Source: Haloterrigena turkmenica DSM 5511 (GTDB lineage: Archaea; Halobacteriota; Halobacteria; Halobacteriales; Natrialbaceae). From it: a stretch of 64,000 nt of DNA. The position numbers and the translations under genes were made by a program. The stretch is from positions 1,364,001-1,428,000 of the forward strand of contig NC_013743.1 of NCBI RefSeq assembly GCF_000025325.1, given 5' to 3'. A model generated the notes under the pieces. The model was not told the origin of the DNA and made no database searches. It worked only from the letters and a program-made list of their open reading frames with translations. Positions within the stretch are counted from its first letter, which is position 1, and every line of letters begins with the position of its first letter. Below, in pieces: positions 8,568 to 33,519 of this stretch.

Positions 8568-8632
8568 ATCTGGACACAACTTGCTGATCGTTCATAATTC
8601 ACCGGGCTGCGAGGTCGGACGAGCGATTTTCG

Positions 8633-8940
8633 GTGCCTCGACTCGACGGCCCGTTCGATCTCGTCTTCCTCGACGCCATCAAGTCGGAGTACGAGGAGTA
8701 CCTGGCCGAGTCGCTGCCGCTGCTGACGGCGGGCGGGATGGTCGTCGCGGGCAACCTCCTTCGCAGCGGTCGGGTCGCCGCTGCGGCCGCGGACACCGAA
8801 ACCGACGTTATCGAGGGGAGTACGGCTCGTCGGCGGCCGCGCTTCGAGCGTTCAACGAGACGTTCGTCGATCACGACGACCTCGAGGCGATCATCACGCC
8901 CCAGGGCGACGGGACCGGCGCTGCCGTCAAAACCTCTTGA
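8633..8940 (+). pseudogene. O-methyltransferase remnant, truncated and frameshifted
   Basis: From 8633 the frame reads FDLVFLDAIKSEYEEY and later GGMVVAGNLLRSGR, which is the second half of a class I SAM-dependent O-methyltransferase (the typical family form is FDLVFLDADK ... GGLVVADNLL). At about 8815-8822, within a GGGG run, the match jumps by one base to another frame that reads ALRAFNETFVDHDDLEAII and ends QGDGTGAAVKTS with TGA at 8938-8940. The N-terminal SAM-binding half is missing, so the gene is 5'-deleted as well as frameshifted. The stop codon abuts a hairpin at 8945-8968 that may mark a mobile-element end. I infer a dead gene; a sequencing error could explain the frameshift but not the truncation. 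Confidence 0.72.
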
Positions 8941-8944
8941 CGTC

Positions 8945-8968
8945 CTCCCCGCGCCGAAGCGCGAGGAG
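8945..8968. repeat. GC-rich hairpin, candidate mobile-element end
   Basis: The arms CTCCCCGCGC and GCGCGAGGAG pair at nine of ten positions around a CGAA loop. The hairpin begins four bases after the stop codon of the O-methyltransferase remnant. Hairpins next to an edge are a feature of IS200/IS605-type elements and their non-autonomous derivatives in haloarchaea, and dispersed-repeat copies A and B follow within 400 bp. It could also simply be a terminator-like structure for the dead gene. Confidence 0.45.
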
Positions 8969-9074
8969 TCCTCGATGGGATAGTAAGCGCTGCTGAACTC
9001 GGTATCGCTCCAGACCGAACGAGGGACCCTGCGGTGGCGCGTACTGTCGACCGACCGAGCCTCGCGAGGGCGGT

Positions 9075-9174
9075 CGATGACACTGCGCGAGGGACGAGCA
9101 AGTGACCGAACGGGAACGAGCGAGTCGGCTGGGGAGGGGCGTGGAATCCCTTGTCGCCACGATAGCAAGACGCT
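9075..9174 (+). repeat. Dispersed repeat, copy A
   Basis: The core reads GAGTCGGCTGGGGAGGG, then a GTGG/AATCCC segment and GTCGCCACG, with GCAAGACGCTT after it. Copy B (9254-9330) is the same element in reverse orientation, and copy C at 33277-33372 shares both the core and the preceding CACT...CGCGAGGGA stretch. It has no start codon or coding bias of its own. The pattern fits a non-autonomous IS200/IS605-like (PATE-type) element or its end sequence, but no transposase gene is present. Confidence 0.6.
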
Positions 9175-9253
9175 TCGTTTCGTCACCAGTGCCTCGAGCA
9201 GACCGGTCTACAAGCATGTATATCGCTCGCCATTTCGATCAGAGCGGGGAGTA

Positions 9254-9330
9254 GAGAGAAGCATCTTGCTCCCGTGGCGACGGGGAATCGCCACGCCCTC
9301 CCCAGCCGACTCGCTCCCGCTGGTCGCTCG
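9254..9330 (-). repeat. Dispersed repeat, copy B (inverted relative to A)
   Basis: The reverse complement reads GGGAGCGAGTCGGCTGGGGA, then GGGCGTGGCGATTCCCC, GTCGCCACGGGAGCAAGA and TGCTTCTCT. It matches copy A nearly base for base over about 55 bp. A and B together form a large inverted repeat with about 80 bp between them, so a transcript across the region would fold into a long stem. No protein is encoded. Confidence 0.6.
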
Positions 9331-9470
9331 TCCATTGTCAGAACGAGTTCTGACACGCCTTCGTTCACTACGCTCACGAAGACCTCGCGCGAATTCGTCG
9401 GTCACCCTCGCTGTCGCTCGGCTGACCGACAGCGCGCGCCACCGTACACTGGGTTCTCAGTTCAGATCGC

Positions 9471-33174: not shown

Positions 33175-33519
33175 GGTACTTCACACGGCGGATACGTCGT
33201 CACGCCGTGCGCTGAACTGACGAGATACCTGTGCGGCGGCGTGCGCTGTCGATCGTATCCGAACGCGAGTGAGGATCGATCGCCACTACCGCGCGAGGGA
33301 TGAGTGAGTGAGCATAGCGAGCGAACGAATCGGCTGGGGAGGAAGTGGAAATCCCCGTTGCCAGAGTCGCACACCGCTCGAGAAGAACCGACTCTCGAGT
33401 CGCACACCGAGTATCTTCACCAGTCTCACGTCCGAGTCTCAACGGTCTCGAGCACGTCGCAGCCCGGCCGAGTAGTGACGTTCCCCTTCTCACTCGAGTC
33501 TACGCTCGCCGACTATTGA
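33175..33519. other. Gene-free interval between phosphohexomutase and DHH genes
   Basis: These 345 bp hold dispersed-repeat copy C and, after it, a 13-bp direct repeat GAGTCGCACACCG (33364-33376 and 33397-33409). I see no convincing ORF; the open frames are Arg/Ser-rich on either strand. Both flanking genes end here (convergent), so no promoter is expected. Confidence 0.55.
33277..33372 (+). repeat. Dispersed repeat, copy C
   Basis: Core AATCGGCTGGGGAGG followed by AAGTGGAAATCCCCGTTGCC, preceded by CACTACCGCGCGAGGGATGA. Both parts match copies A and B at 9.1-9.3 kb with substitutions, so it belongs to the same dispersed family but is more diverged. It lies between the ends of two convergent genes, as is usual for tolerated insertions. 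Confidence 0.55.

Follow-up and report, generated by a model that had tools for sequence, protein, structure and literature searches.

The repeat copies A, B and C in the window, the whole stretch of 64,000 nucleotides of Haloterrigena turkmenica DSM 5511 that was analysed, appear to belong to a chromosomal, intergenic, REP/REPIN-like repeat family of the Halobacteria, which has about 92 copies in this genome. We give an even chance to the reading that this family is a folded single-stranded DNA element, inherited with the chromosome, whose stems are exchanged among copies. The features of the three copies and of the neighbouring remnants are listed in Table 1.

Exact matches to the 13-nt core TCGGCTGGGGAGG occurred three times in the window, once in each copy, including the core that the earlier note had assigned to copy C. 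All three copies lie where that note had located them, but the lengths it gave did not hold, as it had covered only the right-hand portion of every copy. The inverted pair that it described is made up of copies A and B, with arms of 59 nt each separated by 81 nt; at 80% complementarity, however, the arms are not near-identical as it had stated. Copy B is longer because it carries an extra two-hairpin module, with the hairpins TCTTCG..GAAGG and TGTCAGAAC..GTTCTGACA. Copy C sits 3' of a phosphoglucomutase/phosphomannomutase-family gene, and another copy (L003) likewise adjoins a paralogue of this family. A tRNA search of the window found none.

Table 1. Repeat copies, their parts and adjacent remnants in the window (positions counted from the first nucleotide of the window)
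Feature	Position	Strand	Details
Copy A, complete basic element	9031–9179	+	covariance model R1, 135.4 bits, E 4.7e-39
Copy A, left end	9031–9046	+	GCGGTGGCGCGTACTG; columns 1–16 of alignment A1
Copy A, hairpin H1	9038–9089	+	GA/GA internal loop throughout the family
Copy A, zipper hairpin H2	9093–9126	+	3 bp outermost; inside these, 2-bp steps and tandem GA/GA in alternation
Copy A, core	9125–9137	+	TCGGCTGGGGAGG
Copy A, right-end hairpin region	9127–9157	+	alternative pairings
Copy B, complete element with additional two-hairpin module	9255–9445	-	98.4 bits, E 5.7e-28
Copy B, core	9297–9309	-	TCGGCTGGGGAGG
Copy B, extra hairpin module	9336–9383	-	between GCGAGG and GGACGAG
Copy C, complete basic element	33233–33383	+	119.4 bits, E 3e-34
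Copy C, core	33330–33342	+	TCGGCTGGGGAGG
Relic of an IS605-type (TnpB) right end, outside the repeat family	8937–8985	-	TTGACGTCCTCCCCGCGC..GCGCGAGGAGTCC
O-methyltransferase gene remnant (PF01596)	8633–8940	+	lacks about 545 bp of the 5' part; frame disrupted

The genome of this strain comprises 5,440,782 bp, with a chromosome of 3,889,038 bp and six plasmids (PMC3035258). The exact core was found 46 times in it, compared with 0 occurrences of the reversed-pattern control. The left end GTGGCGCGCGCTG was present in 45 of these 46 copies at a modal distance of 89–94 nt from the core, and the right end of the extracted copies was GTGGC..CCCCGTTGCCACGATAGCAG. Because both ends are common to the extracted copies, the basic element is about 150 bp long, with fixed ends (TGCGGTGGCGCGCGC... 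and ...GTGGCNNTCCCCGTTGCCACGATAGCAG) and the invariant core, and it has no room for a transposase gene. The termini match each other only briefly (GGTGGC/GCCAC, helix 1), and a hairpin lies directly inside the left end as a near-terminal palindrome. A covariance model built from 43 copies (alignment A1) gave 106 matches in the genome; after split matches were merged, about 92 elements remained at 77 sites, whose spacing was near-random (variance/mean 0.89). The earlier description of a dispersed, non-coding, palindrome-bearing repeat with common boundaries is thus borne out, and so is its statement that the copies lie outside genes: all 46 exact-core copies here and all 40 examined in other genera were intergenic, by gene contexts that come from a simple home-made gene prediction with a hexamer scorer.

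Close pairs were convergent inverted doublets in 15 of 15 cases, with the right ends facing and gaps of -9 to 143 bp; this count contrasts convergent with divergent pairs only, same-strand close matches having been merged beforehand. Extra modules resembling that of copy B lengthen other copies, so that the distance from left end to core reaches about 360 nt. Nested hairpin modules recur upstream of the core in the long copies L007, L011, L019, L031, L035 and L042, one example being GCGGGACC..GGTCCCGCGAACCATGCGAACGGGCGC..GCGCCCGTGAGCAGA.

The family was almost confined to the chromosome, on which 105 of the 106 covariance-model matches fell; the sole plasmid match was very weak (E 6e-4). As the chromosome makes up 71.5% of the genome, an even distribution would place roughly a quarter of the copies on plasmids. 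The TnpB genes of the same genome number 5 on the chromosome and 8 off it, and chromosomal placement differed significantly between the repeat and TnpB (Fisher p 6e-7). Exact cores also fell on contig 1 throughout in three other genomes (G003, 56/56; G004, 29/29; G388, 60/60), where contig 1 of the assemblies as deposited was assumed from its size to be the main chromosome. Related copies, few but real, were found on some large plasmids in other genera; across the class, the restriction is therefore strong without being absolute. A further copy (L454) was found on CP031304.1, labelled Natrinema thermotolerans 'plasmid unnamed6'; because this copy lies amid the genes for ribosomal proteins S11, S4 and S13 and RNA polymerase subunit D, the contig is probably chromosomal DNA.

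Copy A consists, in order, of the left end, hairpin H1, zipper hairpin H2, the core and the right end. The family consensus of the left end is TGCGGTGGCGCGCGCTG, with a GTGG head immediately 5' of the hairpin, and GTGG precedes H1 in most of the 43 aligned copies. The layout of H2 is GAT-(GA-NN)n-loop-(NN-GA)n-ATC, with short closing loops that are often GNA. Analysis of covariation with RNAalifold and pair counting showed that 94.5% of the cells in H1 and H2 were paired and that two-sided changes numbered 145, compared with 44 expected in shuffles and at most 31 in slid controls. Because structure and counts derive from one alignment in which related copies are counted more than once, the comparison with shuffles exaggerates independence, and the diversity of stem sequences supports the structure better than this figure does.

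The two hairpins also distinguish the strands. Two-by-two loops of the H1 type were GA/GA in 53 of 59 cases and TC/TC in 2 of 59, and most GA steps had a pyrimidine 5' and a purine 3'; the complementary strand would hold T.C mismatches at the GA steps. In all 38 copies compared, the core-bearing strand gave the better fold of the two, under RNA as well as DNA parameters. This strand bias of the GA/GA steps, together with the better folding of the top strand, assigns the structure to one strand in single-stranded form, on which the tandem G.A/A.G steps stabilise the long hairpin H1 and the zipper hairpin H2.

A single strand of this kind could also be an RNA, that is, a 3'-UTR or an independent small RNA transcribed from the top strand, whose hairpins influence protein binding, termination or the stability of mRNA. 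RNA typically shows covariation through G-U intermediates and tandem sheared G.A steps, and H1 contains many G-U pairs; the gap in folding energy between the strands was bigger with RNA parameters, and convergent gene pairs are common neighbours, flanking 16 of the 46 copies. Signals of transcription were scarce, however: an AT-rich, promoter-like box (AT run of at least 6 within 60 nt upstream) was found in 0 of 46 copies, a terminator-like T4 tract downstream in just 6 of 46, and no Rfam match in the window at the gathering threshold. The right-hand neighbour gene was directed toward the element in 35 of 46 copies, a bias that was not clear in other genera, and the left-hand neighbour was co-oriented with the top strand in 24 of 46 and not in the other 22; the 40 copies from other genera had no consistent orientation relative to their neighbour genes. 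A strict 3'-UTR position was rejected on the left-neighbour count and the lack of clear bias elsewhere. The lack of association with promoter boxes and T tracts and the 22 left neighbours that do not transcribe the top strand favour DNA, and we regard the RNA reading as unlikely, if still a serious contender.

The family would then act and turn over as a folded single strand that is most likely DNA, and comparison of sites among relatives points to vertical inheritance at many of them. Site C was occupied in five congeners (G001–G005) and empty in G009, and when ten further sites were compared with four congeners, 19 of the 40 cases read as occupied, in the same place and orientation. Over 22 orthologous comparisons, identity was 0.86–0.88 in the ends and core, 0.69–0.73 in the flanks and 0.52–0.57 in H1 and H2. 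At the site of copy L015, the flanks and a right-end variant are common to the orthologues and the hairpins are wholly different. Because the identity of H1 and H2 is below that of the flanks and of the ends and core, the hairpins are replaced faster than the surrounding sequence, and from these sequence mosaics we infer block exchange among copies. Whole blocks of hairpin stem would pass from copy to copy through conversion or template switching, with the ends and core retained.

The A/B site differs in its history. Three congeners (G001, G002, G004) lack both copies and have the O-methyltransferase gene and gatB a few bases apart, whereas about 570 bp are inserted in the window. The pair does abut a broken gene, as had been noted earlier, namely the O-methyltransferase remnant, and the truncation of this gene and the A/B region possibly reflect a coupled deletion/insertion event. 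The remnant region, also given as 8606–8940, is frameshifted and about 545 bp shorter relative to the same three congeners. A search for precise empty sites found none with exact boundaries or a target motif; the element-free orthologous sites have rearranged spacers.

Across the class, the distribution was patchy. The core was present in 208 of 391 Halobacteria genomes at 0 to 96 copies per genome, the range inside one genus was 0 to 60, many close relatives had zero copies, and the covariance model gave like patchiness in relatives. The core itself is unchanged across families. In viral contigs, a 14-base pattern gave numerous matches, as chance would produce, and was not informative, and an 18-base pattern gave none; no match was found in phages. 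Such strong differences in copy number between relatives are not predicted by an indispensable function.

A transposase was sought in several ways. The core was absent, with one mismatch allowed, from all 44 TnpA/TnpB loci of this and other genomes, so that no TnpA/TnpB gene with matching ends was found, and a BLAST search of A, B and C against the 14 TnpA/TnpB loci of this genome gave no significant match. The genome has a single Y1 transposase (PF01797) match, a 38-aa remnant that contains a stop. The genome holds thirteen TnpB-type matches (G000, L381–L393) and no intact Y1 TnpA. Y1 transposase is entirely absent from seven high-copy genomes (G388, G344, G254, G027, G001, G002 and G004) and present in 8 of 9 zero-copy genomes, and over 25 further genomes copy number showed no positive association with Y1 transposase. 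No gene family recurred beside copies across genomes beyond shared sites, and no common flanking transposase was found. No RAYT-like gene was found in this genome, which leaves the propagation step without a candidate enzyme. Within the preferred reading of an exchanged, folded single-stranded DNA, new copies and doublets may come from single-strand copying or processing, which would need no IS200/RAYT (Y1) transposase in this genome.

If an HUH or other nuclease that has escaped recognition moved the family in trans, following the logic of REP and RAYT with an enzyme outside PF01797, the family would be a non-autonomous single-strand transposon. The GTGG head that immediately precedes a GC-rich hairpin compares with the REP head GT(A/G)G (PMC2817692), and the intergenic placement, the inverted doublets, the patchy class-wide spread and the large differences in copy number would all suit such an element. 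Set against these are the avoidance of plasmids, the failure to see a precise insertion and the lack of a recurrent gene family beside the copies beyond shared sites, and we think this reading improbable, although it is, with the RNA reading, the chief rival. A role as a chromosomal site bound by an architectural or replication protein, which would recognise the 13-nt core in the setting of the hairpins, is in our view quite unlikely: the chromosome restriction, the near-random spacing of the 77 sites and the invariance of the core across families would agree with it, but many close relatives have zero copies, which argues against an essential organiser, and a duplex palindrome site does not need GA/GA steps on one strand.

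The earlier note had judged the core to fit the PATEs, whose defining feature is near-terminal palindromes with a relationship to IS605-type transposons (PMC3119063). An IS605-type relic does lie in the window: by BLAST, the stretch beside copy A matches the 3' ends of the TnpB loci L382 (E 4e-6) and L387 (E 2e-5), and it adjoins copy A and the methyltransferase remnant while differing from copy A in sequence. The family shares with PATEs the near-terminal palindromes, the short, non-coding form and the haloarchaeal host, but a degenerate IS200/IS605-type element with IS605 ends, moved by TnpA in trans, is very improbable in view of the core at 0 of 44 TnpA/TnpB loci, the lone Y1 fragment, the distribution of Y1 transposase over high-copy and zero-copy genomes, and the orthologous sites kept across species.

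Among known systems, the bacterial REP, BIME and REPIN sequences with their RAYT (PMC2817692, PMC6006769) come closest, being short, intergenic, high-copy and hairpin-forming, with inverted doublets, compensatory changes in the stem and the same type of head in front of a GC-rich palindrome. The REP/REPIN palindrome is single and 20–40 nt long, whereas the repeat described here has two hairpins and a fixed 13-nt core in about 150 bp; unlike REP/REPIN, it has tandem GA/GA steps in its hairpins, is archaeal and occurs in a genome without RAYT. In Archaea, a survey detected no TnpA other than the IS200 type (subclass 1.1; PMC6006769). The family is therefore filed here as REP-like rather than as a demonstrated REP/RAYT system. 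The PATEs of Haloquadratum walsbyi also resemble it in the heterogeneity of their copies (PMC3119063); their palindromes are related to IS605-type transposons, whereas no such relation was found for this repeat, which avoids plasmids. SMR-A of Haloquadratum (PMC3119063) is likewise short and has no known transposase, and its nesting inside palindromes resembles the extra modules seen here; as described, it differs from this repeat in its length of about 110 bp and its conspicuous inverted terminal repeats. Nesting of hairpins within copies can further be likened to the GC clusters and self-nesting palindromes of organelles, a comparison of our own. The GC clusters of yeast organelles are GC-rich palindromes repeated between genes and are suspected of being selfish DNA. 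Similarly, the self-nesting palindromes of Volvox organelles are GC-rich, palindromic and intergenic and are suspected selfish DNA (PMC2670323). The fixed ends, the core and the strand-specific GA steps are peculiar to the haloarchaeal repeat in this comparison. A search of the open-access PMC literature by sequence and by concept found no description of the haloarchaeal repeat.

REP-type repeats and their single-strand enzymes have been described from bacteria, and a REP-like family in Halobacteria, with many high-copy genomes that lack Y1 transposase, raises the question of what copies the repeat. A wider reading, which we consider possible but doubtful, is that of a class-wide archaeal repeat of folded single-stranded DNA built on tandem sheared G.A steps, which propagates and exchanges whole hairpins within chromosomes independently of a transposase or through an undescribed single-strand nuclease, and which is kept off plasmids; if true, this would be a REP-like system of Archaea driven by a new engine. 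Hairpin turnover has left a readable record in the conserved, strand-specific G.A steps and in whole stems replaced at unchanged sites, and its near-absence from plasmids makes the repeat naturally suited to mark processes that are confined to the main chromosome. The family would also account for many unannotated intergenic stretches in haloarchaeal genomes. In the copies L076, L089, L106 and L117, from genomes of Halosimplex, Halolamina and related organisms, a different haloarchaeal repeat, GTGGGACTGAAAGGG(C)...GGGGGCTTTC, lies directly to the right of the core.
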